The notes under the pieces were generated by a model. It did not search any database and had not been told where the DNA came from. It saw only the letters and a program-made list of their open reading frames with translations. A stretch of 64,000 nucleotides of DNA from a virus. Position 1 is the stretch's first letter, and each line of letters begins with the position of its first letter. A program made the position numbers and the translations under genes. The DNA is taken from positions 250,001 to 314,000 of IMG/VR virus record IMGVR_UViG_3300020469_003050. The stretch is one strand, 5' to 3'. Positions 1,669 to 49,096 of the stretch are shown one piece after another.

Positions 1669-2310
1669 ATGAAAAAAGTAAAGAGTACAATTATACCACA
1701 ACCCAAAGAACAACCGGCACCACCCCCACCCCCTCCGATGCCAACTCCGCCAGTACCACCAAAGCAGGCAGGTGAGTTCTTAAGAGAGAATGGTGTATTG
1801 TTCATGGACAAAGAGTTCAACCAAGACAACTGTATGCCTCTTGTAAGAATGATTTTAGAATACAATCTGATGCCAAAAGATAAAGCACCAGATATTATTC
1901 ACTTATATATTAATTCACCAGGTGGTTTGGTAGACAGTTGTATGCATCTAATTGATACAATCAAACAATCACGTATTCCAGTATATACATATGGAATGGG
2001 TTCTATTGCAAGTTGTGGAGTTATGTTGATGATGAGTGGTGTAAAAGGTCATCGTTATGTCACACAAAATACCGCAGTAATGTCACATGAATTCTCAGGT
2101 GGTCAAAAAGGTCAATATCATGATATGTTAGATAGTAAAAAACATATGGATTGGACTAACGAAAAGTTATTAGAACATTATATCAAGTGTACAGGTAAAA
2201 CAAAAACTTACATTCGTAAACATCTATTAGCACCCAAGACAGACCATTGGCTTACTCCAGAAGAAGCAGTTAAGCATGGTATCGCAGACGAATTAATTAC
2301 AACTTATTAA
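1669..2310 (+). CDS. clpP: ClpP-like serine protease with proline-rich N-terminus
   Basis: Proteolytic subunit of a Clp protease, expected to form a barrel fed by an AAA+ unfoldase. The catalytic triad can be read: Ser115 in GSIASCG (usual GxxASMG), His140 in VMSHEF, and Asp192 in the APKTDHWLTPEEA segment. Residues ~10-32 are an unusual proline-rich extension (a run of seven prolines) ahead of the normal protein, giving 213 aa. It sits directly behind the primase. The same window encodes ClpX (41179) and ClpS (44607), so a complete phage ClpXP-ClpS machine is plausible. Whether it pairs with phage or host ClpX is unknown. Confidence 0.93.
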   Translation: MKKVKSTIIPQPKEQPAPPPPPPMPTPPVPPKQAGEFLRENGVLFMDKEFNQDNCMPLVRMILEYNLMPKDKAPDIIHLYINSPGGLVDSCMHLIDTIKQSRIPVYTYGMGSIASCGVMLMMSGVKGHRYVTQNTAVMSHEFSGGQKGQYHDMLDSKKHMDWTNEKLLEHYIKCTGKTKTYIRKHLLAPKTDHWLTPEEAVKHGIADELITTY

Positions 2311-19565: not shown

Positions 19566-20165
19566 ATGAACAGAGTTTGGTTATTTGGTGAAACATCTGA
19601 TTTTTCTAAGACTTTATTAAGAGCAATACGAGAGAAAACATCAGATGTTCAAACATTTGGTAGAAGAAATATATCATATGATGAAGATTTAAGGACACAG
19701 ATTAGTTTAAATGAAAATCTTCCAGATAAAGTAATCATAAATGTAAATTTAGGTTTTACTTGGGGTAAAACAAAGGCACTAAAATGGGTAGATCCTTTAC
19801 AAGTTATATATTTTATTTCAGAGTTACTTAAGGCTTTTCACGAATCAAATAAAGATATAACAGTTGTATATATTACAAGTTCAATAACAATGGGTGTATG
19901 CCCTGAACAATATTTTCTAAAACATAAAGATTATGTTTCTATCAGGCATGTACAACAAACTATGTGGTCTGCATATACATCAGACAAACTTAAAGTATTA
20001 GCAGTTAGCCCTTCTAATGTGAATACTGATAATATGGAAAAGTATGCTGAAAGAATAGTAGGGTTTCTTTATAATCCTCCTTCTGTCAGAAAACCAATAA
20101 TAGATTTAAACCAACATAAAAGTATTAGAGATGAATGGTTTGAATTGTACAAACTTGATAAATAG
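19566..20165 (+). CDS. Rossmann-like hypothetical protein
   Basis: 199 aa. Starts VWLFGETSDFSKTLLRAI and has a central strand ITVVYITSSITMG and VLAVSPSNVNT, an arrangement like a degenerate short-chain dehydrogenase (G-x3-G turn imperfect, no clear Y-x3-K). An AAGGAT ribosome site precedes it. Function unknown. Confidence 0.5.
   Translation: MNRVWLFGETSDFSKTLLRAIREKTSDVQTFGRRNISYDEDLRTQISLNENLPDKVIINVNLGFTWGKTKALKWVDPLQVIYFISELLKAFHESNKDITVVYITSSITMGVCPEQYFLKHKDYVSIRHVQQTMWSAYTSDKLKVLAVSPSNVNTDNMEKYAERIVGFLYNPPSVRKPIIDLNQHKSIRDEWFELYKLDK
20157..20164 (+). promoter_or_regulatory. Late-type box placing +1 on the start codon
   Basis: GATAAATA at 20157-20164, five bases (GATAT), then ATG 20170. 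If the box is used like the T4 late box, transcription begins at the A of the ATG. The same spacing occurs at 38098. Confidence 0.65.
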
Positions 20166-20169
20166 ATAT

Positions 20170-20859
20170 ATGCGTGTAGAAGAAATTATAAAATCAGTTG
20201 AAGAAGGGATAAATGACCCTCATATATTTAAAGCAGTATTCATGGCTGGCGGCCCTGGCTCCGGTAAGTCTTTTGTTGCTAAAAAGTTTCTTTCAGGAAC
20301 AGGCTTAAAGATGGTCAATTCAGATGAAATATTTGAACACCTAATGAAGAAAAATGATTTACCACTAGAACCAGACACTATTGTTTCACCACAAGGTAGA
20401 GAACAAAGAGATAGAGCAAAGATACTAACTAAGTTGCGTAAAGATACTTATATCGACGGACGTTTAGGTTTAGTTATTGATGGTACTGGTAAAGATGTAA
20501 TGAAGATTGGTAAGATTAAAGAAAAATTAGCACAAATCGGCTACGATAACATGATGCTATTTGTTAATACAAGTGAAGAAGTAGCACAAGACCGTAATAC
20601 TCAACGTACAAGAAGTATTCCAACAGAACTAGTAACAAAGATGTGGAAACAAGTACAAGATAACATTATGAAATTTCAACAAATGTTTAGTGCAGGTCGT
20701 TTCTTTGTTGTTGATAATTCTGGTGGACTAGAAGATCCAGAAAGAGCAGAAAACTTTACAAAAGTCAATAAGCAAATTGATAAGTTTCTTGTTCAACCAC
20801 CAACTAAGCGAGAAGCTAAGAAGTGGATCGAAGACCAAAAAGCAAAACGTTCAAGTTAG
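20170..20859 (+). CDS. P-loop kinase, zeta-toxin/AAA-type
   Basis: 229 aa from ATG 20170 (an upstream in-frame ATG at 20131 lies inside the previous gene). Walker A GGPGSGKS is followed by MVNSDEIFEHLMKK (zeta-toxin-like Asp after strand 2), VIDGTGKD as Walker B-like, and an arginine-rich lid (DRNTQRTRSIP). Such proteins phosphorylate small molecules or nucleotides, for example T4 polynucleotide kinase-like and zeta families. Substrate unknown. Confidence 0.72.
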   Translation: MRVEEIIKSVEEGINDPHIFKAVFMAGGPGSGKSFVAKKFLSGTGLKMVNSDEIFEHLMKKNDLPLEPDTIVSPQGREQRDRAKILTKLRKDTYIDGRLGLVIDGTGKDVMKIGKIKEKLAQIGYDNMMLFVNTSEEVAQDRNTQRTRSIPTELVTKMWKQVQDNIMKFQQMFSAGRFFVVDNSGGLEDPERAENFTKVNKQIDKFLVQPPTKREAKKWIEDQKAKRSS

Positions 20860-27192: not shown

Positions 27193-28213
27193 CTTAAGGT
27201 TATTAATAGTAGGTGCTGGAGCTGGTAGTAATTTTATTGCATCTAGGCTAATTGATGGACAAACCGATGATGCGAAAGAATCAGATTTAAATAATGAGTA
27301 CCGTGCAAACAGAGAGTATGGTGGAATAAGAAATACAGTAAAAAATGAAGTCAAACATATGTCAGGAGAAGTATTTGACTTCAAAGAAAATGAACGATAT
27401 CAGATTCTTATAGATGGAATATTAAAATCTAAATTTCCAACTGCGTTAGAACTTAGCAGAAAAGTAAAGAAACCTAAGTTATTATCAAGTATTATAAATG
27501 TCATAAATCTAATGAGTAGATGGGATGGAGAAAAATTCTTAGATAAACCTCAAGCAGGTTATATAACATTAACTAACAGAATAAAACGTCAGTGGAGATA
27601 TAATCTTTTTTGGAGACAACCACATTTTTGGTTTGAAAAAATTGAAATGTATATGGCTAATTTTGAAAAATGGACTAGGGAAAATAAACATAAAAGTAAT
27701 ATGTCAATATTGCTTACTGATGATTATAAAAGAACTAAAGAGTTTATAAGCAAATGGAATATGTTGGCTTGGGAAGTGCATAAGATAGAAAATCAACCTT
27801 TGACTTCTATAGAGCATTACTTGCCTTTGTTTATGGATAAGAATGTTACGAAAGAGTTATCTAAACTAGTAAATATATGTGTAGTACACGTAGATGATAA
27901 TACTACGGGCTTTGTTACAGATATACTAAATATGAAACATATGACTGAAACTATTAGAGAACAAACAAATTCTGTTAAAGTGATGGGACCAAACTACGAA
28001 GAATTAGAATATGCAGATGTTGTAGTAAGTTATAGAAAGTTGTTTTATGATGCTAGTCCTACAGAAATACGTAAGTTATTTAAGTTTGTGGGTAGGGAAG
28101 AGTATTTTGATAATAATAAAGAAAAAGAAATAAAAGCATTTCACGATTATCATATGAGTAATGTAAACTATTACGTTGATAATTGGGAAGAACTAAGCGA
28201 GGAGATTGTATGA
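27176..28213 (+). CDS. GAG-N-F paralogue 3
   Basis: 345 aa. N-terminal LLIVGAGAGSNFIASRLI and C-terminal YRKLFYDASPTEIRKLFKFV plus FDNNKEKEIKAFHDYH show descent with the two previous genes. The hydrophobic strand before the loop makes a nucleotide- or PAPS-binding P-loop more likely. Overlaps the deformylase start by 4 bp. Confidence 0.6.
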   Translation: MQKVDNLRLLIVGAGAGSNFIASRLIDGQTDDAKESDLNNEYRANREYGGIRNTVKNEVKHMSGEVFDFKENERYQILIDGILKSKFPTALELSRKVKKPKLLSSIINVINLMSRWDGEKFLDKPQAGYITLTNRIKRQWRYNLFWRQPHFWFEKIEMYMANFEKWTRENKHKSNMSILLTDDYKRTKEFISKWNMLAWEVHKIENQPLTSIEHYLPLFMDKNVTKELSKLVNICVVHVDDNTTGFVTDILNMKHMTETIREQTNSVKVMGPNYEELEYADVVVSYRKLFYDASPTEIRKLFKFVGREEYFDNNKEKEIKAFHDYHMSNVNYYVDNWEELSEEIV

Positions 28214-28725
28214 CTGTATTACAGTTGATAGATGAAAAAGACGAGAGACTAAAACAAGTATGTGCTAAACATGAAATAGATGAAGCTACAGAAAAATTAG
28301 TATATGATATGATTGTAACAATGCAAGAACATGATGGTATAGGACTTGCGGCACCGCAGTTAGGTGTTATGGAACAGATATTTGTAATAGGACACAAAGA
28401 TGCAGGATTTGTTGTTTGTATAAATCCAACTTGGGTTCCTACTACAGATGCTAAGTTAGAAAAGTTTCAAGAAGGTTGCTTAAGTTTTCCTCATCTAGCA
28501 TTGAACATAGAAAGATACAATCAAGTACATTGTACATTTACTAATCTAAAGGGCGAAACACAAACTCGTTTGTTTAATGGTGTATGGGCACAAGCGATAC
28601 AACATGAACACGACCACTTAATGGGTATAACATTTGATAAGAGAGCAAAGACAAGTCAATTAAGTAGAGCATTAGCAATACGTAAAGAGAAACTAAAAAG
28701 AATTAAAAAGAGAAGTAAAGATTAA
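28210..28725 (+). CDS. def: Peptide deformylase
   Basis: 171 aa from ATG 28210 (GAGGAG upstream; ATGA overlap). Removes the formyl group from nascent N-terminal Met. All three motifs are intact: GIGLAAPQ (43-50), EGCLSFP (metal ligand C90) and QHEHDHL (H132, E133, H136). The C-terminus is extended and basic (KLKRIKKRSKD), perhaps for ribosome contact; many marine phage deformylases lack a tail. It joins IF-3 and bS21 as translation-related cargo. Confidence 0.95.
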   Translation: MTVLQLIDEKDERLKQVCAKHEIDEATEKLVYDMIVTMQEHDGIGLAAPQLGVMEQIFVIGHKDAGFVVCINPTWVPTTDAKLEKFQEGCLSFPHLALNIERYNQVHCTFTNLKGETQTRLFNGVWAQAIQHEHDHLMGITFDKRAKTSQLSRALAIRKEKLKRIKKRSKD

Positions 28726-30355: not shown

Positions 30356-30733
30356 ATGGATTTATTTTTATTCTACCTTGCAGTAAGCGTAATCGTTACT
30401 TCAAGTCTCATCATATATTTTAGAGAACATTTAAGAAAGCAGATTGGCTGGTACTTACTAGGCATGTTGGCCTTTATGGTCATTACAAACTGGAACGAGT
30501 ACTGGTGGATGATGTTTTTTAGTTTGGTAGTATTTTTTCAAGTTCCACCATTTAGTGTGGAAGAAAAACTACTTACAAAGGCCGCTAATTCGGACAACCG
30601 GTTCAAGAGGTGGCAACGGAAGAAAGGAAAGTTTGTACAATTTATAGTATACATTTTATGTATGATATTATTGAGTGCATTCGTTACCTGGATTTCAGGC
30701 GATGGAAATATACATTTCATCTTGATAGGATAG
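30356..30733 (+). CDS. Membrane protein (125 aa)
   Basis: Four hydrophobic helices (~2-22, 32-44, 48-62, 98-114) with a short basic loop RFKRWQRKKGKFVQ. The topology fits a small integral inner-membrane protein; no family recognised. Confidence 0.6.
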   Translation: MDLFLFYLAVSVIVTSSLIIYFREHLRKQIGWYLLGMLAFMVITNWNEYWWMMFFSLVVFFQVPPFSVEEKLLTKAANSDNRFKRWQRKKGKFVQFIVYILCMILLSAFVTWISGDGNIHFILIG

Positions 30734-30736
30734 CTA

Positions 30737-30765
30737 TTGACTCACAATACAACCTATGATATAAT
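30737..30765 (+). promoter_or_regulatory. Sigma70-like promoter, exported peptide
   Basis: TTGACT (30737-30742), 17-bp spacer, TATAAT (30760-30765): the strongest match in the window. Confidence 0.82.
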
Positions 30766-30821
30766 GCAATTAGTATTAATCTAAGAACAGGATTAGTATG
30801 GACTTAACTAAGGAGGATGTT

Positions 30822-31175
30822 ATGAAAACATCAATTATCGGACTGCTAGTCGCAGTCTTTTTTTCTGCAACGGCGTTTGCAGAAGACACAAGTGTATCAA
30901 ATGATATTTCTTGGTCTCTAACATTAGAGAGACAAACAGAAGCAAATGCTAATACAGGCGAACTAATGGGGACTATGGAAGTTTTAGGACTTGATGTTTC
31001 TGCGGGTGGACTGTGGAACATTGATAAATCAGGTGAAGATTTTATTGACTTGAATAAAACGATGTTAAATGTTAGCCACTCGCTTTCTGACCAAGCAAAA
31101 GTGTATCTAAAGAATGACTTTAGTACAGATTGGGACAGAACTGAGTCAACAATAGGTCTACAAATTACGTTTTAA
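30822..31175 (+). CDS. Exported beta-barrel-like protein
   Basis: 117 aa from ATG 30822, which has AAGGAGG; an earlier ATG at 30798 lacks one. A signal peptide is clear (KT, hydrophobic core, AFA cleavage at ~20). The mature part has alternating polar/hydrophobic strands (SWSLTLERQTEAN, KVYLKNDFSTDW) and ends TIGLQITF, with terminal Phe as in outer-membrane porins recognised by BAM. Too short for a full barrel by itself, perhaps oligomeric. A phage protein that changes the host surface, for example for superinfection exclusion, is a reasonable guess. Confidence 0.65.
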   Translation: MKTSIIGLLVAVFFSATAFAEDTSVSNDISWSLTLERQTEANANTGELMGTMEVLGLDVSAGGLWNIDKSGEDFIDLNKTMLNVSHSLSDQAKVYLKNDFSTDWDRTESTIGLQITF

Positions 31176-31179
31176 TTTG

Positions 31180-31210
31180 TTGACAAAAACACCTCTATAG
31201 TGTATAAATA
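31180..31210 (+). promoter_or_regulatory. Dual promoter of tmRNA
   Basis: TTGACA (31180-31185), 17-bp spacer, TATAAA (31203-31208). The same bases extend to TATAAATA (31203-31210), the late box. Both polymerase forms could start at about 31215. Confidence 0.72.
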
Positions 31211-31214
31211 TAGA

Positions 31215-31492
31215 TGTTAACGTTGAAGCAAGTTCAACACTATACAGGACCTGGGGGCAGTACCCAGCAGGTCCACCATAAACACATTATCAGTTTGCAT
31301 TAGTGTGTTTATGATGGGCCTGAACTAGGATCGACTGGTGGTTAATAGGCGAGTGGAGTTAACCGAGTGACTTCGTTATTGGTCAAACACTATAATTGCA
31401 AACGACAATTATCAGCCAGAAATGGCAATGGCGGCCTAATTTAGGCACGTAGGGGTTGGTGACTTGCCTGGCAACAGAAAAGTCACATTTTT
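31215..31492 (+). ncRNA. ssrA: Circularly permuted two-piece tmRNA
   Basis: The acceptor piece comes first: T-arm CTGGG/CCCAG with 7-nt loop GGCAGTA, then CAGGTCC and ACCA ending at 31278. A spacer hairpin follows (31279-31315, TAAACACA/TGTGTTTA), to be cut out. The messenger piece starts at 31316 with GGGCCTG, which pairs over 7 bp with CAGGTCC to rebuild the acceptor stem, and continues with GGATCGACTGG, a tmRNA signature. The tag frame is at 31398. The 3' end has hairpin GTGACTT/AAGTCAC and a T run. This permuted layout is the alphaproteobacterial (and some cyanobacterial) form, so the gene was probably taken from the host lineage. Rescues stalled ribosomes and tags products for ClpXP. Confidence 0.93.
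31398..31439 (+). other. tmRNA tag reading frame
   Basis: Codons from GCA 31398 to TAA 31437-31439 read ANDNYQPEMAMAA. The AND(N) start is typical of alphaproteobacterial tags and the final Ala-Ala is the ClpX degron. Interior YQPEMAM differs from tags I know, which may alter recognition by ClpS/ClpA or SspB adaptors. Confidence 0.92.
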
Positions 31493-31515
31493 ATTTGGGA
31501 GTGGGTTTTTTGTAA

Positions 31516-31854
31516 ATGGCATACGTAGTAACGCAAGATTGTATAAAATGTAAGTATACTGATTGTGTGGAAGTTTGTCCCGTTGATTGCTTTTATGAGG
31601 GCAAAGATACTTTAGTTATTAACCCAGATGAATGTATAGATTGCGGTGTTTGTGAACCCGAATGTCCTGCAGAAGCAATAATTCCTGATACGCATGAAAA
31701 ATTTACAATGCGACTCTACGATATAAATAAAAAGTGGTCAGAACAATGGCCAGTAATTACAGAAAAGCAAGATCCCTTACCTGATGCTGATTCACTAAAT
31801 CCAGCAATGGGATATTCAGAAGATAAGACAAAGTTGTTAGATGAATACGATTGA
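31516..31854 (+). CDS. fdxA: FdxA-type 7Fe ferredoxin
   Basis: 112 aa. [14 protein letters not shown] (C9, C12, C17, C21) and [12 protein letters not shown] (C40, C43, C46, C50) bind a 3Fe-4S and a 4Fe-4S cluster. C25 and the [11 protein letters not shown]-terminal extension are as in the alphaproteobacterial FdxA family. Small soluble electron carrier. It lies 24 bp after the tmRNA terminator without an obvious ribosome site of its own except GGGAGTGGG. The end overlaps the next gene. Clearly host-derived; its partner enzyme in the phage is unknown. Confidence 0.95.
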
Positions 31855-34844: not shown

Positions 34845-35095
34845 CATAAGCATAAAACAATTTAGCGGTTGTTTTATTGTAGTGCAAGGAAGAGGCTGTT
34901 ACCAGACGGTCGAACTTGACTAGTTAGGGGTGGTACCCAGGCTTAAAGCTGAGAGGCTAAGAGTCACATCGTTCTACCGAACGGAACTAGGTTCCCTGGA
35001 TTCAGAATGGTATCTGTGTCGAGGGGTTGGGGGTGTAACCAAGTCCCTCCTACTTTGCTTATATTTCTGATTGCAATACCAAGCAATCAAAATTA
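34845..35095 (+). ncRNA. Unassigned structured RNA
   Basis: About 250 nt (310 with the terminator) with no ORF. Helices visible: ATAAAACAA/TTGTTTTAT (34853-34878), TGACT-TTAG pairing with CTAA-AGTCA around 34918-34967 and enclosing GGGTGGTACCC, CGTTC-TACC-GAACG (~34970-34983), GGAAC-type GGAA/TTCC, and GAGGG...CCCTC enclosing TTGG/CCAA (~35020-35048). It is GC-richer than its surroundings. It is not tmRNA, tRNA, 6S or RNase P as far as I can tell. Own promoter and terminator argue for a stand-alone RNA. Confidence 0.7.
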
Positions 35096-35886: not shown

Positions 35887-36708
35887 TTATTTCTTATCTA
35901 GTGCAGAAATCATCCTAGTCATTCCAATTCCTCCACCAACTCTTGGGAAGAAATCAAATTCTAAGAATTTTTCTAGTTCTGCTTCTACTCTTTCTTTAGA
36001 AAATAGTTTGTACAATAATTCTGAGTATTCACCATTTGTTATTGTGTGAAAAGTATCTCTCATCATTTCTACATCACATGAACGTTCTGCGGATCCAATA
36101 GTTTCCATTCCACCTAAGATAACATCTATCTTCTTACTAGTTGCACCGCCTTCATTTCTGCTCATATTCCAGAACGGAGATGTCATTTCAGGAAAATCTG
36201 TAATCATTGTTGAACCGAATTCTTCAAACATTTTAGTTTCATGTTCTGCTTCCATTTCTACTGTTGGTTCTAAGTTGTAATGTTTTTGCCAATCAGCATA
36301 TGTTCTTTCTTCTGGTTTAGGGAACTCTAAGTATTCACATAGTTCGTATTCCATCTTTTTCAAATCATCAATGTCACCTGGCATTTCAAATTCAAACATT
36401 GGGAAGATAATATCGTGTCTACCTGGAATTGCATTTGGCTCTTGTCTATAGGACGTGGAGACACAAAAAAAGCCCTTTGTATCGGGCTTTGAGAGTAATT
36501 CGTGTTCTAACCACATTTGGCCTGTTTGGGGAAGCGGCCAGACTTGGCCTGCGTAATTGTATGTTGCTACATTGAACGGGTCTTCACATGCCGCCAATAT
36601 AGATAATCTGTTTTGGGTATGGACTTCTAAAAATCCTTTATCCAAAAAAAATGACCTTAAAAGGCCAACTGTTCTTGTAAATTTATCCGGAGATATTAAT
36701 TGTGTCAT
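35887..36708 (-). CDS. Class II aaRS-like ligase (Asp/Asn type core)
   Basis: 273 aa from ATG 36708 (AAGGAAA site; a TTG at 36732 is in frame). Motif 2 can be read as STSYRQEPNAIPGRHDIIF with FEFEMPG, and motif 3 as GGGIGMTRM near the C-terminus. There is no N-terminal anticodon-binding barrel, so it is unlikely to be a normal AsnRS. Class II cores without that domain act as amino-acid ligases (for example AsnA or PoxA types). It may aminoacylate or amidate an unknown target. Confidence 0.75.
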   Translation of the reverse strand: MTQLISPDKFTRTVGLLRSFFLDKGFLEVHTQNRLSILAACEDPFNVATYNYAGQVWPLPQTGQMWLEHELLSKPDTKGFFCVSTSYRQEPNAIPGRHDIIFPMFEFEMPGDIDDLKKMEYELCEYLEFPKPEERTYADWQKHYNLEPTVEMEAEHETKMFEEFGSTMITDFPEMTSPFWNMSRNEGGATSKKIDVILGGMETIGSAERSCDVEMMRDTFHTITNGEYSELLYKLFSKERVEAELEKFLEFDFFPRVGGGIGMTRMISALDKK

Positions 36709-36782
36709 TTTCTTTTCCTTTTTGTTATCCAAAAAAAAATATAGCCAAAAAAAAATTTGGTATTCGTTTTTGATGTTGTTTT

Positions 36783-41178: not shown

Positions 41179-42453
41179 TTGGCTGACAAAAAAGATTATC
41201 ATTGTTCATTTTGTGGGAAACATAAGAATGAAATTAGTACATTAATTGCAGGTCCTTCGACATTTATCTGTAATGAATGTATTGACCTATGTCACTCTAT
41301 CGTATATGAACGCAAGAATGTAACTAAAAAATCTAAAACTGTAAACAGTGACATTCCGACACCTGACGAAATTAATGAGTTTTTGAATGCTCATGTAATT
41401 GGTCAGGGAGAAGCTAAAGAAGTCCTGAGTGTGGCTGTTTACAATCATTATAAAAGAATTAATCAATCAGAAGATGATGATGTAGAGTTAGAGAAATCTA
41501 ATGTTATGATGCTCGGTCCTTCTGGTACAGGTAAAACACTCTTAGCAAAAACAATCGCAAAATTCTTAGATGTTCCTTTCGCACAAGTCGATGCAACTAC
41601 ATTAACAGAAAGTGGTTATGTAGGTGAAGATGTTGAAAACGTAATACAACGTTTACTTATGAATGCAGACTTTGAAATTAAGAAAGCAGAACAGGGTATT
41701 ATCTACATAGATGAGATAGATAAGAAAGCTAAAAAGGGTGAAAGTATTTCAATCACTAAAGATGTTAGTGGTGAAGGTGTTCAACAAGCCTTATTAAAAA
41801 TTGTTGAAGGCACTGTTGTTCGTGTTCCGCCAGGTGGTGGGAGAAAACATCCAGGTGCTGATATGCTTGAAGTTAATACTGATAACATTTTATTCATTGT
41901 AGGTGGTGCATTTGTAGGACTTGATAAAGTAATCAAACGAAGATTGAATTCAAATGGTTCAATTGGTTTTGGTGCAAGAGTTATGGCACAAGATAGCAGT
42001 GATGATATGACAGTATCACAAGAAGTGTTGCCAGAAGACGTAATTAAATATGGTATCATTCCAGAATTTATGGGTCGTTTTCCAATACTTGTAGGCATAG
42101 ACGATTTAACTGAACGTGAGTTAAGTCGTATATTAACAGAACCTAAGAATAATTTAACTGCACAATTTAAGAAGATTTTTAAATTAGATGGTGTAGATTT
42201 AAATTTTACTGAGGATGCAATAACAGAGATATCTAAAATAGCAAAAAAGAATAAGACTGGAGCAAGAGGTCTAAGAAGTGTTTTAGAAAAGTCATTGTTA
42301 AAATTACAATTCAAATTACCTAAGCTATCAAAGAATGCTGGCTTAACGTCTGTTGAAATAACTGGTGACTTTATTAATAAAAATGCTGATCCAATTTTGG
42401 TATTTAAGGATGAAACAGAGGAAAATATAAACATTAATGAAAAGAAACTTTAA
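41179..42453 (+). CDS. clpX: ClpX AAA+ unfoldase
   Basis: 424 aa, full length, TTG start. Zinc-binding domain C9, C12, C31, C34; Walker A GPSGTGKT (113-120); Walker B GIIYIDEIDKKA; GYVGEDVE pore-1 loop; RKHPGA RKH loop; IGF tripeptide (262-264) that docks into ClpP; arginine finger in FMGRFP. Unfolds ssrA-tagged proteins and feeds ClpP. The complete IGF loop means it can work with a ClpP, phage (1669) or host. Overlaps infC. Confidence 0.97.
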   Translation: MADKKDYHCSFCGKHKNEISTLIAGPSTFICNECIDLCHSIVYERKNVTKKSKTVNSDIPTPDEINEFLNAHVIGQGEAKEVLSVAVYNHYKRINQSEDDDVELEKSNVMMLGPSGTGKTLLAKTIAKFLDVPFAQVDATTLTESGYVGEDVENVIQRLLMNADFEIKKAEQGIIYIDEIDKKAKKGESISITKDVSGEGVQQALLKIVEGTVVRVPPGGGRKHPGADMLEVNTDNILFIVGGAFVGLDKVIKRRLNSNGSIGFGARVMAQDSSDDMTVSQEVLPEDVIKYGIIPEFMGRFPILVGIDDLTERELSRILTEPKNNLTAQFKKIFKLDGVDLNFTEDAITEISKIAKKNKTGARGLRSVLEKSLLKLQFKLPKLSKNAGLTSVEITGDFINKNADPILVFKDETEENININEKKL

Positions 42454-42982
42454 AGATGAAAGAGGGCGAAAGCCTTTTATTATCGCTAACCAACGTATCC
42501 GTGCAGACGAGTTACGTGTGGTAACAGACCAAGGTGAGCAACTTGGTATCATGCAAAAAAATCAAGCACAACAAAAAGCGGATGCTGACGGATTAGATTT
42601 AGTTCTTATAGTTCCTAACGCCAATCCTCCTGTAGCAAAAATCATTAGTATAAATAAGTACAACTACGAAATCAAAAAACGTGAGAAAGAGAAGGCAAAA
42701 CTAGCCAGACAAAATTCAGTTGAAGTTAAAGAAGTTAAGTTCAGACCAGCTATAGGCGAGAATGACCTAAAGATGAAACTTAACCAAGTTCAAAAGTTTA
42801 TTGACAAAGGCAATAAAGTAAAAGTGACAATACAAATGAGGGGCAGGGAAAATGCAAAAGCTACAGAAGTTTTAGCATATTTCAATTCCCAAATCTCTGA
42901 ATACTTGAGTAGTTTTAAGTATGACCTTCCTCTAAAAACTAACGGGAATAGAATAATAGGTGTAATAATAAAAAATGACTAG
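42437..42982 (+). CDS. infC: Translation initiation factor IF-3
   Basis: 181 aa, both domains intact: N-domain IANQRIRADELRVVTDQGEQ and C-domain VKEVKFRPAIGENDLKMKL, VTIQMRGRE. Binds 30S, checks start codon and leaves space for initiator tRNA. Cellular infC usually starts with AUU for autoregulation; here it is ATG, so that control would be lost. Overlaps clpX and rpsU. Rare in phages. Confidence 0.96.
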   Translation: MKRNFKDERGRKPFIIANQRIRADELRVVTDQGEQLGIMQKNQAQQKADADGLDLVLIVPNANPPVAKIISINKYNYEIKKREKEKAKLARQNSVEVKEVKFRPAIGENDLKMKLNQVQKFIDKGNKVKVTIQMRGRENAKATEVLAYFNSQISEYLSSFKYDLPLKTNGNRIIGVIIKND

Positions 42983-44039: not shown

Positions 44040-44483
44040 ATGACAAACGGACTATCTATTTTTAACCAGTTACGACCTGTAACTGTAGGCTTTGACAACA
44101 TGTTTGACCACTTTGAACGTATGTTCGATGGCGATGTTGCAACATTTCAAACTCAAGTAAACTTCCCACCTTACAATATCGTAAAGACTGGAGATTTCAC
44201 TTATGATGTAGAACTAGCATTAGCTGGATTCTCAAAAGATGATATTACAGTTGACTATGCTGATAACATTTTGACGGTTAAATCTGTTAAGAAAGAAAAA
44301 TCAGATGATGATAAAGACGGTGTTCTTCACAGAGGTATCTCTAAAAGAATGTTCTCTAAAGCATTCACTATTGCAGATGATGTTGAAGTGAAAGGTGCAG
44401 AGTTGAAAGACGGGTTACTGAAAATATCTTTAGAACGTATCGTTCCAGAAGGTAAGAAGCCTCGTAATATCGAAATATCATAA
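44040..44483 (+). CDS. Small heat-shock protein Hsp20
   Basis: 147 aa. Alpha-crystallin domain (~35-130) with YNIVKTGDFTYDVELALAGF, LTVKSVKK, LHRGIS-RMFSKAFTIADD and LLKISLERI, and a C-terminal I-x-I (NIEIS) for oligomer contacts. IbpA-like holdase that keeps unfolded proteins soluble. Own early promoter, thermometer-like leader and terminator. Hsp20 proteins are common in marine T4-like phages, but the ROSE-like leader is not something I know from them. Confidence 0.93.
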   Translation: MTNGLSIFNQLRPVTVGFDNMFDHFERMFDGDVATFQTQVNFPPYNIVKTGDFTYDVELALAGFSKDDITVDYADNILTVKSVKKEKSDDDKDGVLHRGISKRMFSKAFTIADDVEVKGAELKDGLLKISLERIVPEGKKPRNIEIS

Positions 44484-46521: not shown

Positions 46522-47577
46522 ATGTTTAGAAAATTAGTAATGACAGTTGCATTGACTTTAGGTCTAGCAACATCGGCATTAGCTGATTATACATTGATTG
46601 TTCCTCAGGAGCCTGGTAAAGGTACTTCTGTATGGGGAGAAATCATTGCTAAGAACTTAGAAAAGTTCATCGGTGAACCAGTCGTAGTTCGACATATCCC
46701 AGGTGCAAGAGATATTCCTGGATTCAATAAATTCCACAAAAGCCTACGTTTTGATGACAAAACAATCATGGTTGCACACGGTGGTAACGGTGTATCATAC
46801 TTACTAGATAAAGTTGATTACAATTATTTCGATTATGAACTAATTGGTTCAATGAACAATGATATCGTTCTTGGTAAGCATGAAGGCGCAAGTGAAAAAG
46901 AAGACCATTGGACAATCGCAGGCGGATCAGGTTTCGAACCAGATGCGGCGGCAGTTGCAATGTTAATCTGTGGACCAACAGGTAATAATTCAGTTGATGA
47001 TTATCTAGCATGTTGGAGAGAACGTGTAACTTGGGTTAACGGCGTATCAGGCGGTGAAAAACGTCTTGGTTTTAAAAACGGCGAATTCGATGTAGCACGT
47101 GAATCACCAGCGGCATGGAAACGTTTCTATGAAGGTATTGAAGGTAATGAACTATGGTTCACACACGGCATCCTAGACTTAGAAAACAATGTACAAATGG
47201 CAGATCCAAACTTCCCTAACACACAGTTTGAGGATGTATACGAGTCACTATGGGGCGAAAGACCATCAGGTGATTTATATCAAGCATATAAACTAACTCG
47301 TAACTGGCGTGATGCTATTCAAAAATCACTTTGGATGAACAAAGGTAACCCAAATGCGGCAAAAGTTAAAGCGGCTGTAACTGAAATGATTAATGATCCA
47401 GTTGCAAGTGCAGAGATTTATGCTAAGACTGGTGTTTACCCTTGGATTCAAGATGGACCAGCTTTATTGGCGGCTTTGAAATCTTTAATTACAGAGAAAG
47501 CACTTAAAGATGCGGTTCGTTGGAACCAAGAAGCATATGGCTTCCCATCAATCTATAAGCCTGAACTTTTAAACTAA
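46522..47577 (+). CDS. tctC: TctC-type solute-binding protein
   Basis: 351 aa. Signal peptide with cleavage after ALA at ~21, then YTLIVPQEPGKGTSVWGEII (TctC loop that binds the carboxylate), VVVRHIPGARDIPGFN and VAHGGNGVSYL. Periplasmic receptor for a tripartite tricarboxylate transporter. It is followed by TctA after 10 bp. Phage-borne copies are unusual; the codon usage looks like the neighbouring phage genes. Confidence 0.85.
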   Translation: MFRKLVMTVALTLGLATSALADYTLIVPQEPGKGTSVWGEIIAKNLEKFIGEPVVVRHIPGARDIPGFNKFHKSLRFDDKTIMVAHGGNGVSYLLDKVDYNYFDYELIGSMNNDIVLGKHEGASEKEDHWTIAGGSGFEPDAAAVAMLICGPTGNNSVDDYLACWRERVTWVNGVSGGEKRLGFKNGEFDVARESPAAWKRFYEGIEGNELWFTHGILDLENNVQMADPNFPNTQFEDVYESLWGERPSGDLYQAYKLTRNWRDAIQKSLWMNKGNPNAAKVKAAVTEMINDPVASAEIYAKTGVYPWIQDGPALLAALKSLITEKALKDAVRWNQEAYGFPSIYKPELLN

Positions 47578-47587
47578 GGATATAGCT

Positions 47588-49096
47588 ATGGATTATGTTA
47601 TCTGGGCATTAATTGGCACCTGTTATGGAATGCTAGTTGGTATTATACCTATCGCAGGTGTAACTACCGCCCTGATAACTGTCTTTAGCATGGGAGCATA
47701 CTTTATGGCCGACCCCTATTTGGGGTTGGTCTTTTTAACGGCTATCGTGGCAAGTTGTGCCAGTGCAGATAGTTACACAAGTATTCTTACTGGTATTCCA
47801 GGCGCAAGTACAACTGCGGCATGTGTTATTGATGGTTATCCTATGGCGAAGAAAGGCCAAGCGGCCAGGGCAATGGGAATTGCTATCGCAGATTCAACAT
47901 TTAATGGTGTAGTATTTGCGGCTCTAACCTTTTTCTTACTTCCTTATTATGGGAAAGTAATTGTATTATTTGGTCGTCCAGAATTTCTGGGCTTCATGTT
48001 GATGGCACTTGCATGTGTAGGTTTCGTTGCAAGTAAGAATGTTTTCTTAAGTATCTGTGCAATCATATTTGGATTATGTGTGGGTATGGTAGGAGAAGAT
48101 GTTGTAAGTAATCCTAGATTAACATTTGGTTGGGAATATTTACAAAACGGAATAGGCATGGTTGTTCTATTATCAGGTCTGTTTGGTGTTCCAGAATTAT
48201 TAGATGGATTTAGAAGAAAACTAAAATCAGCGGCACCTCCAATGGAAGGAAGTTATTGGGAAGGGCTAAAAGAAGGTTTTGGTGATGTTCGAAAGAATTG
48301 GAAAGATATGATGCGTGGTGGTCTAATTGGTTTTGTTACTGGTTTGTTACCAGGTGTAGGAGGCGCAGTAGGTGACTTCTTAGCATACGGTGCCACAAAA
48401 GCCGCACATAAAGATAAAGACCAAGAAGTACCTTTTGGATCAGGGAATCCAGTAGGGTTATTAGGCTGTGAAGGAGCCAACAACGCACAGAAAGTATCTA
48501 GTATGATACCTGCTTGTTTGTTTGGTATTCCAGCGGCGCCATTTGCGGCTATGGTTATGGCAATCTGTATGTATTTTGGTATGGAAATCGGTACACCTAG
48601 TTTACTAGATGATATTCAATTTACAAATAGTTTAGCATTTGGATATATCTTTGGAACTATTGGTGTAGCACTATTAAGTATATTCTTATACAAATGGATT
48701 CTTAAAGTACTAGAAGTTCCTTTCTGGATTTACGCAACATTTATTTTAGCAGTAATTGTTTATGCTAATATGCAATACACAGGTGGTTGGGAAGACCTAG
48801 CCTTACTGGCTATATTAAGTGCTATTGGTGTTGTATGTAAAATATACAATATTAGTAGACCAGCTATTCTTGTTGCATATGTTGTAGCATTTAAAATTGA
48901 TGAGTATTTTTGGGGAACATTACAGTTGTATGGTTACAAACAATGGAAACCAGGGTTAACTTCAATGTCAGATTTTAGATGGTTTGACTTATTCAACATT
49001 TATAATCACCCTATCTTTCTTGTGTGTATTCTTATAGCTTTAGGAATATTCATAAATAGTCTTGTAAGAAAAGATAAAGGACTCGATTATACATGA
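47588..49096 (+). CDS. tctA: TctA-type large permease subunit
   Basis: 502 aa with about 11-12 membrane helices. Family motifs: GIIPIAGVTTAL near the N-terminus, GIPGASTTAACVIDGYPMAKKGQAARA, and the second-half repeat GLLPGVGGAVGDFLAY. Transports citrate-like carboxylates with TctC. The small TctB subunit is not encoded next to it. Four-bp overlap with the oxygenase gene. Confidence 0.93.
   Translation: MDYVIWALIGTCYGMLVGIIPIAGVTTALITVFSMGAYFMADPYLGLVFLTAIVASCASADSYTSILTGIPGASTTAACVIDGYPMAKKGQAARAMGIAIADSTFNGVVFAALTFFLLPYYGKVIVLFGRPEFLGFMLMALACVGFVASKNVFLSICAIIFGLCVGMVGEDVVSNPRLTFGWEYLQNGIGMVVLLSGLFGVPELLDGFRRKLKSAAPPMEGSYWEGLKEGFGDVRKNWKDMMRGGLIGFVTGLLPGVGGAVGDFLAYGATKAAHKDKDQEVPFGSGNPVGLLGCEGANNAQKVSSMIPACLFGIPAAPFAAMVMAICMYFGMEIGTPSLLDDIQFTNSLAFGYIFGTIGVALLSIFLYKWILKVLEVPFWIYATFILAVIVYANMQYTGGWEDLALLAILSAIGVVCKIYNISRPAILVAYVVAFKIDEYFWGTLQLYGYKQWKPGLTSMSDFRWFDLFNIYNHPIFLVCILIALGIFINSLVRKDKGLDYT

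Follow-up and report, generated by a model that had tools for sequence, protein, structure and literature searches.

tmRNA frees bacterial ribosomes that have become stuck and tags the unfinished proteins for destruction by a protease. Phage tmRNAs were included in an earlier survey (PMC4131195), permuted tmRNA is already in print for marine phages, where 53 of 133 unique phage tmRNA structures are called two-piece (PMC9004378), and a 2025 database gives 79 unique tmRNAs for bacteriophages and 11,946 of the permuted kind (PMC11915505). The marine phage Melnitz (EXVC043M, MZ577095) and three sister isolates have a permuted alpha-type tmRNA, as does the sequence described here, which is a 64 kb stretch (bases 250001–314000, referred to throughout as the window) of the 342,607-base IMG/VR virus record IMGVR_UViG_3300020469_003050. 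Melnitz and the window are 77.5% identical over 108 bases, from the end of the spacer into the mRNA half, and both have TTGACA-N17-TATAAATA just upstream of the tmRNA. They differ in the tag (ANDNYVPVDYALAA in Melnitz, ANDNYQPEMAMAA in the window) and in the spacer, which is 142 nt in Melnitz, a phage of 141 kb, and 37 nt in the window. A glutamine riboswitch is reported at the Melnitz ssrA (PMC9004378); there was no match to a glnA-type glutamine riboswitch at E ≤1 in window positions 30700–31700, and control of that type was rejected for the window tmRNA.

A jumbo phage with both a tmRNA and Clp proteins has been described: AP-J-162 of Sinorhizobium has one tmRNA, six Clp ORFs, and clpX beside IF-3, although the AP-J-162 passages of that paper do not link the tmRNA with Clp (PMC11242549). 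In Phosso (PV764938), also a jumbo phage of Sinorhizobium, clpX is likewise beside IF-3, ClpP is 71% identical to that of the window record, and RF01849 matches at 349553–350242 (locus L068; 108 bits, spacer 410 nt), where PV764938.1 has no RNA feature. Both genomes are larger than the record studied here (469 kb for Phosso, and 471.5 kb with 66 tRNAs listed for AP-J-162). The Agrobacterium phage Atu_ph07 (PMC6102473; jumbo phages are reviewed in PMC7824862) also has clpX beside IF-3 and a ClpP 69% identical to that of the record, and RF01849 is without a match across the 490,380 bases of its genome. Permuted tmRNA in phages is already known, and what is added here is a tag that appears to be phage-associated, a promoter-like motif, and the company of ClpX and ClpP.

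Structure of the tmRNA gene

A complete permuted tmRNA gene of alphaproteobacterial type was identified with Rfam and ARAGORN in the 64 kb window at about 31184–31489, where it takes up the gap between ORFs 30798–31175 and 31516–31854. In cmscan, RF01849 (alpha_tmRNA) matches 31167–31489 on the + strand with 122.6 bits (gathering score 50, E 6e-33) and is covered end to end (1–355 of 355), while RF04321 (tmRNA_permuted) matches 31216–31439 with 114.4 bits against a cut-off of 47. ARAGORN calls a single permuted tmRNA at 31184–31530, with the tag ANDNYQPEMAMAA followed by a stop. No other RF01849 match at E ≤0.001 is present in the 342,607-base record, and the fold is equalled by none of 200 dinucleotide shuffles (z -4.9).

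The acceptor half, with its encoded CCA, precedes the messenger half (Table 1). The acceptor 3' strand CAGGTCC (31268–31274) is followed by ACCA (31275–31278) and forms 7 pairs, including G3.U70, with the GGGCCTG (31316–31322) that begins the mRNA piece. G3.U70 is the alanine identity pair. The tag frame starts at GCA, with codons at 31398–31436 and the stop TAA at 31437–31439. The first-pass annotation had proposed a permuted two-piece tmRNA of alphaproteobacterial type, with 7 bp of end pairing ahead of ACCA, an intact tag frame, and cuts at about 31278/31316, and had named an Infernal search with the alpha-tmRNA covariance model as one check. The search gave the match reported above, and the form, type, pairing and frame all hold, with the proposed cut points agreeing with the piece ends parsed from the sequence; the cutting of the RNA into two pieces would follow from its likeness to known permuted tmRNAs.

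Table 1. Features of the tmRNA locus and of the associated protein genes. Positions are those of the window unless marked as those of the record.
Feature	Position	Strand	Basis
Promoter-like TTGACA-N17-TATAAATA	31180..31210 (-35 at 31180-31185, TATAAATA at 31203-31210)	+	Sole mismatch-free match; conservation
Acceptor (3') piece: encoded CCA end, T-arm CTGGG-GGCAGTA-CCCAG, acceptor strand CAGGTCC	31216..31278	+	RF04321/RF01849 alignments and parse; 5' end approximate
Intervening segment, 37 nt, hairpin with continuous end stem of 11 pairs	31279..31315	+	Removal predicted by analogy with known permuted tmRNAs
mRNA-like (5') piece: GGGCCTG start, resume codon, tag, 3' hairpin	31316..31489	+	Sequence, ARAGORN, Rfam; 3' end approximate
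Tag reading frame ANDNYQPEMAMAA plus TAA	31398..31439	+	Sequence, ARAGORN, tag comparison
7-bp hairpin around CCTGGCAACAGAA motif, then T-rich run; possible terminator	31459..31496	+	MFE fold and sequence
ClpX homologue: zinc finger, AAA+, GYVG pore loop, RKH loop, IGFG loop	41179..42453	+	PF06689 3.2e-15, PF07724 6.8e-31; alignment to solved ClpX
IF-3 homologue, overlaps clpX end	42437..42982	+	PF05198, PF00707
Full ClpP	record 167078-167623		Family score 259 bits
Second, divergent ClpP-like protein	1669..2310	+	PF00574 113.3 bits; phrog_94 head maturation protease 3.7e-28

Alphaproteobacterial ssrA has in common with the window copy the whole-model match, the encoded CCA, and a tag of the form ANDN...AA, and the window T-loop, GGCAGTA, is present in 23 of the 76 bacterial copies parsed (GGCGGTA in 45). 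The differences are a PEMA core that is absent from the sampled bacteria, a spacer end stem that is commoner in viral copies, and a lower score. The window copy is divergent, since its 122.6 bits are below the listed bacterial whole-model matches over the cut-off (143–313 bits, aside from the phage contig in genome G004). The hairpin at the 3' end may be a terminator; it is absent from the list produced by a consensus scan.

The promoter-like motif

The motif 5' of the tmRNA is the sole mismatch-free match to TTGACA-N17-TATAAA in the window, where the looser matches (up to 2 mismatches) number 30 against 25.3 expected and show no excess over chance. Among 31 distinct upstream stretches, from the window and from the tag-matched loci with an ARAGORN call (see below), 24 have TTGACA and 3 have TTGACT at the same spacing, one has TTGACA one base nearer, and the other 3 either do not have the exact arrangement or are cut. 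Of 74 other viral tmRNAs, 39 have TATAAATA nearby, as do 2 of 94 bacterial tmRNAs, these being raw counts irrespective of base composition.

TATAAATA is taken here to be the late-promoter word of phage T4. A role as a general late promoter was rejected, and of the two possible readings the σ70-like one is preferred over a T4-type late promoter, because TATAAATA is not in excess in the window (9, with 12.7 expected) and here comes with TTGACA at 17 nt. The Melnitz tmRNA is placed behind an early promoter (PMC9004378), which fits a σ70-like reading of the window motif.

The tag and its distribution

A search for tags of the ANDNYxPE type, in which the pattern predetermined much of the tag sequence and was biased to low-GC genes, found 57 viral contigs, all with a PEMA core; one of these, L027, is from the same virus as the window. 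The same pattern in the genomes of 84,980 bacterial and archaeal species found 2 contigs, both near-copies of viral contigs (L036 and L063 agree in 114 of 115 test words, L064 and L035 in 150 of 160). Among the pattern matches the exact tag ANDNYQPEMAMAA is confined to this virus (window and L027). The 57 viral loci and the window together have YAPEMALAA (22 of 58), YAPEMAMAA (20), YQPEMALAA (9), YQPEMAMAA (2), YAPEMAIAA (2), YSPEMALAA (2) and YEPEMALAA (1). There are 22 distinct DNA versions of the tag in these 58 sequences, with synonymous changes at codons 2–5 and 10–13 and third positions that vary at many codons, and residue 9 is M in all 22 versions, although the search pattern permitted five residues there.

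Viral tags that were not selected by tag sequence are diverse. In this sample, 80 of the at least 120 stretches were used and 52 of the 80 gave an ARAGORN tag, of which 5 are of PEMA type among the matches listed. The bacterial comparison used 120 alphaproteobacterial loci chosen from matched genomes (the 30 best-scoring, 30 mostly small low-scoring, and 60 more leaning to small genomes). No PEMA tag is present among the ARAGORN tags of 94 of these loci, some of which are plainly spurious, the other 26 having given no tag, and no tag with PE is present in the 74 bacterial rows of the tree described below. Related tags such as ANDNYAPVALAA do occur among the 94. The window tag starts ANDN and ends -AA, as do most of the sampled bacterial tags. 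The initial description of its middle as unusual was too strong, given the PEMA core common to 57 viral contigs, although this core was not found in the sampled bacterial tags. Use of a PEMA tag as a host marker was rejected, as it is absent from the 94 bacterial loci and the two genome hits are near-copies of viral contigs.

At least one tblastn match to the window ORFs at 1e-6 was found in 55 of the 57 tag-matched loci (all but L029 and L038), a count in which several loci have a single match, overlapping-frame shadows are included, and Melnitz also has one match. The single-match loci and the match in Melnitz mean that shared proteins cannot serve as proof of one phage lineage; many of the tag-matched loci, though not demonstrably all, would seem to be kin of this phage. 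Within the searches made, ANDNYxPEMAxAA was met in phage DNA only, which would suggest a phage-associated family of tags.

ClpX and ClpP encoded with the tmRNA

The ClpX homologue has PF06689, PF07724 and PF10431 over their cut-offs, a C4 zinc finger and an AAA+ domain. The GYVG, RKH and IGF loops are all present and align with solved ClpX; they are taken to be the pore loop, the RKH loop, and the loop that docks on ClpP. The full ClpP, elsewhere in the record, aligns over residues 4–196, with CSMG, MIHQP and ERD, which presumably hold the Ser/His/Asp catalytic triad, all aligned, and activity is predicted on this basis. The second ClpP-like protein was rejected as the ClpXP partner; it is over the cut-off for PF00574, but its best PHROG is a head maturation protease, as which it is best read. 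A profile search of the 342,607-base record found no SmpB, with a model that matched 10 of 14 control genomes; this result is provisional, as the record may be incomplete. No SspB was found in the record with a model that matched only 2 of the 14.

ClpP is present in 7 of 16 searched records: that of the window, the tag-matched contigs G195, G196 and G197, Phosso, Atu_ph07, and the MAG G001, where it is on contigs other than that of the tmRNA. ClpX is present in 4 of 15 (that of the window, G196, Phosso and Atu_ph07), which includes 2 of the 13 tag-matched records, the window record being one, with many of the negatives being fragments. A further search found ClpX in 1 of 4 records, the contig of L027, from the same virus. 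ClpX was not found in the 150 kb contig of L042 nor in the MAG holding L063, many of the searched records being fragments. The tmRNA and ClpXP therefore occur together in the window record, G196 and Phosso, and Atu_ph07 has ClpXP with no RF01849 match. On these counts, ClpX does not go consistently with the tag.

A functional tie between the tmRNA and ClpXP is an attractive but unproven link. Phage ClpX and ClpP are widespread, with 191 and 1251 phage records respectively at 1e-5, some of which are doubtful, and no paper linking phage tmRNA with phage ClpXP was found among those listed in searches of the open-licence literature. A large phage that brings a tagging RNA, ClpX and ClpP offers an opportunity to test whether phages take control of how stalled ribosomes are rescued and of what becomes of the tagged proteins.

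Proposed function

The locus is best read as encoding a permuted tmRNA that is functional, inherited within phages, and used by a large marine phage presumably together with host SmpB, and the probability of this is put at roughly 0.8. The RNA would be transcribed from its own σ70-like promoter, and the precursor would fold with the spacer hairpin stacked on the acceptor stem. Host tRNA-processing enzymes would excise the spacer to give the two-piece tmRNA, which host AlaRS would charge via G3.U70. Host SmpB would bring it to ribosomes stalled on broken mRNAs, expected to be abundant in infection, where the ribosome would resume at GCA 31398, add ANDNYQPEMAMAA and stop. The tagged fragment would then be passed to ClpXP, possibly with a contribution from the ClpX and ClpP of the phage. 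Steering of ribosome rescue by a phage tmRNA, as had been suggested on first inspection, is plausible.

It may be that the phage has a tag-and-destroy line of its own, in which its tmRNA writes ANDNYxPEMAxAA and its ClpX and ClpP preferentially degrade the products, partly or wholly apart from the host tag and adaptors. This would place both rescue and amino-acid recovery under phage control during infection, if true, but it is doubtful at present.

tmRNA acts on stalled ribosomes irrespective of the product being made, and the window tag begins ANDN and ends -AA in the manner of most sampled bacterial tags, both of which make it unlikely that the tag is chiefly for recycling host protein, or for marking products for phage-specific handling, in place of general rescue. 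In favour of such a role are the difference between the phage tags and the sampled host tags, the presence of phage ClpX and ClpP, and the suggestion by the Melnitz authors that host protein is degraded for amino acids (PMC9004378).

An inhibitor or decoy RNA, which would titrate SmpB or block host trans-translation as proposed for the tRNA-domain-only RNA of DS6A, has a precedent in the inhibition of tmRNA by a TLD-only molecule of the DS6A kind (PMC4131195, PMC11915505). A decoy is considered very unlikely here, as both the mRNA piece and the tag frame of the window gene are complete and synonymous changes leave the tag intact, although much of the tag was set by the search pattern.

Conservation and descent of the viral copies

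Conservation of the viral copies was assessed in a set of 118 sequences: the window copy, 74 loci from the listed matches of a second viral scan that gave an ARAGORN call, and those 43 of the 57 tag-matched loci for which ARAGORN did so. From these, 80 distinct copies were parsed, 17 were unparsed and 21 were duplicates. Opposite G1, G2 and G3, all 80 have C72, C71 and U70, in a parse that demanded G as the first and third bases of the 5' strand and left their partners free, and thus G3.U70 is present in the window and in all 80. Acceptor pairs 4–6 and T-stem pairs 1–3 show two-sided changes with 2 non-standard cells in 480; in total there are 3 such cells, one each at acceptor pairs 4, 6 and 7, and none in the T-stem.

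A tree was made from 182 distinct tmRNA cores (108 viral and 74 bacterial), with the spacer excluded, the tag cut where recognised, identical cores entered once, and L027 representing the window. The 74 bacterial rows are what remained of the 120 loci after parsing and de-duplication, and divergent groups such as SAR11 may be under-represented. It is a rough tree, with 153 columns, 92 of 179 inner branches open, and the bootstrap unsettled. One group holds 73 of the 74 bacterial rows and one viral row (support 85/99, below the starred level), leaving 107 of the 108 viral copies outside it; the one bacterial row left over joins Phosso, on a long branch. The label 'bacterial' takes 3 changes on the tree, compared with 57.7 in shuffles. 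This would suggest that viral and bacterial tmRNAs are mostly apart, rather than that they have never been exchanged. The rows with a PEMA tag take 16 changes and form two main groups and single rows, and L042, which was unparsed, has a PEMA-type tag on a tmRNA with a different T-loop. A single clade for the PEMA tag is unsupported, and the tag and the body of the RNA may therefore have separate histories.

The same 64 kb has genes for a DnaB-like helicase, primase, tape measure, head maturation protease and virion structural protein, the record is classed as a virus by IMG/VR, with 10 tRNA matches, and L027 has the same tmRNA in a contig identical at 2793 of 2794 bases. The initial call of a phage-borne gene stands on this gene content, on the classing, and on the second contig. 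A host chromosomal ssrA, recently picked up or misassembled into the contig, might be considered since the permuted alpha form is normal in Alphaproteobacteria (190 genomes were sampled and 174 exceed the cut-off, G004 only via its phage contig), but it is highly improbable beside these phage genes, a second contig of the same virus with the gene, the lack of any PEMA tag among the 94 bacterial loci with ARAGORN tags, and the position of the viral copies on the tree. The tree and the tags support the view that tmRNA is an established part of marine phage genomes, having tags of its own and mostly separate branches, and not something captured by chance.

ssrA is a known site of integration. That the window gene is the dead scar of a temperate ancestor that used ssrA for attachment, in line with the exchange with prophage raised in the Melnitz paper (PMC9004378), is hardly credible: the gene is complete, a promoter-like motif precedes it, and in many viral loci the stems covary.

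The gene had also been taken to indicate the class of the host, and here the tmRNA type stands as suggestive only, because Melnitz, whose host is an OM43 bacterium (Gammaproteobacteria according to PMC9004378), has an alpha-type tmRNA and L063, a contig with the same type of tag as the window, sits in a Neomarinimicrobiota MAG. The type of a phage tmRNA is thus an unsafe guide to host class. L063 (PBPT01000016.1, 335,231 bases) shares proteins with the window and, being a near-copy of the viral contig L036 where compared, probably comes from a large phage and was placed in a bacterial bin.

The spacer

The spacer ends pair over at least 7 continuous pairs in 57 of 80 viral copies, compared with about 2% of shuffled spacers. 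Such a stem is present in 12 of 76 parsed bacterial copies, of which 22 have spacers of less than 18 nt that could hardly form one. The stem is likely to keep the acceptor ends together until processing.

The spacers of some related phage tmRNAs have small ORFs (L040, L241, L230, L250, L035/L070, L037, L270 and L238). As point estimates, the 62 aa protein of L040 and L241 has a pN/pS of 0.35 in frame (0.84 and 2.62 in the other frames), and the 44 aa protein of L230 and L250 has a pN/pS of 0.14 (2.30 and 0.74). In L035, a 75 aa ORF behind AGAGGA takes up much of the spacer. The DNA motif of the 62 aa protein is present in 117 viral loci, in 27 of which it is between the acceptor-half and messenger-half patterns, and thus in the spacer; in another 22 the two patterns both follow it within 900 nt, 15 times at an identical offset of 249; 9 loci show a single pattern and 59 neither. 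Melnitz (L002) has a 69% identical protein of this type immediately 5' of the tmRNA and a second, unannotated ORF inside the spacer. The tmRNA spacer seems to be a place where small genes nest within the gene of a structured RNA, although that of the window, at its short length, is without one. Spacers with a tRNA gene and a repeat are mentioned in PMC11915505, and a search of the open-licence literature found no report of protein genes in a tmRNA spacer. An Rfam search at gathering scores of 14 loci, mostly chosen for long spacers, gave nothing beyond tmRNA and tRNA.

Other features of the window

Elsewhere in the window are a zeta-toxin-like kinase (20131–20859), a peptide deformylase (28183–28725), a class II (D,K,N) tRNA-synthetase-like protein (35887–36732, - strand) and an Hsp20 (44040–44483). 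Two adjoining ORFs at 46522–49096 have no PHROG match; by eye their starts resemble, presumably, a tricarboxylate-transporter binding protein and its membrane partner. A manA RNA motif at 34861–35059 (59.8 bits, E 9.7e-13) lies between an FkbM methyltransferase gene on the + strand and a following gene on the - strand, with no same-strand gene nearby downstream, and this region matches an unannotated part of Pelagibacter phage Mosig (75% at the DNA level over 229 bases). Directly after the tmRNA is a ferredoxin-like gene (31516–31854; Fer4, DUF3470), which has matches of 64% and 68% identity in the tag-matched loci L032 and L012.
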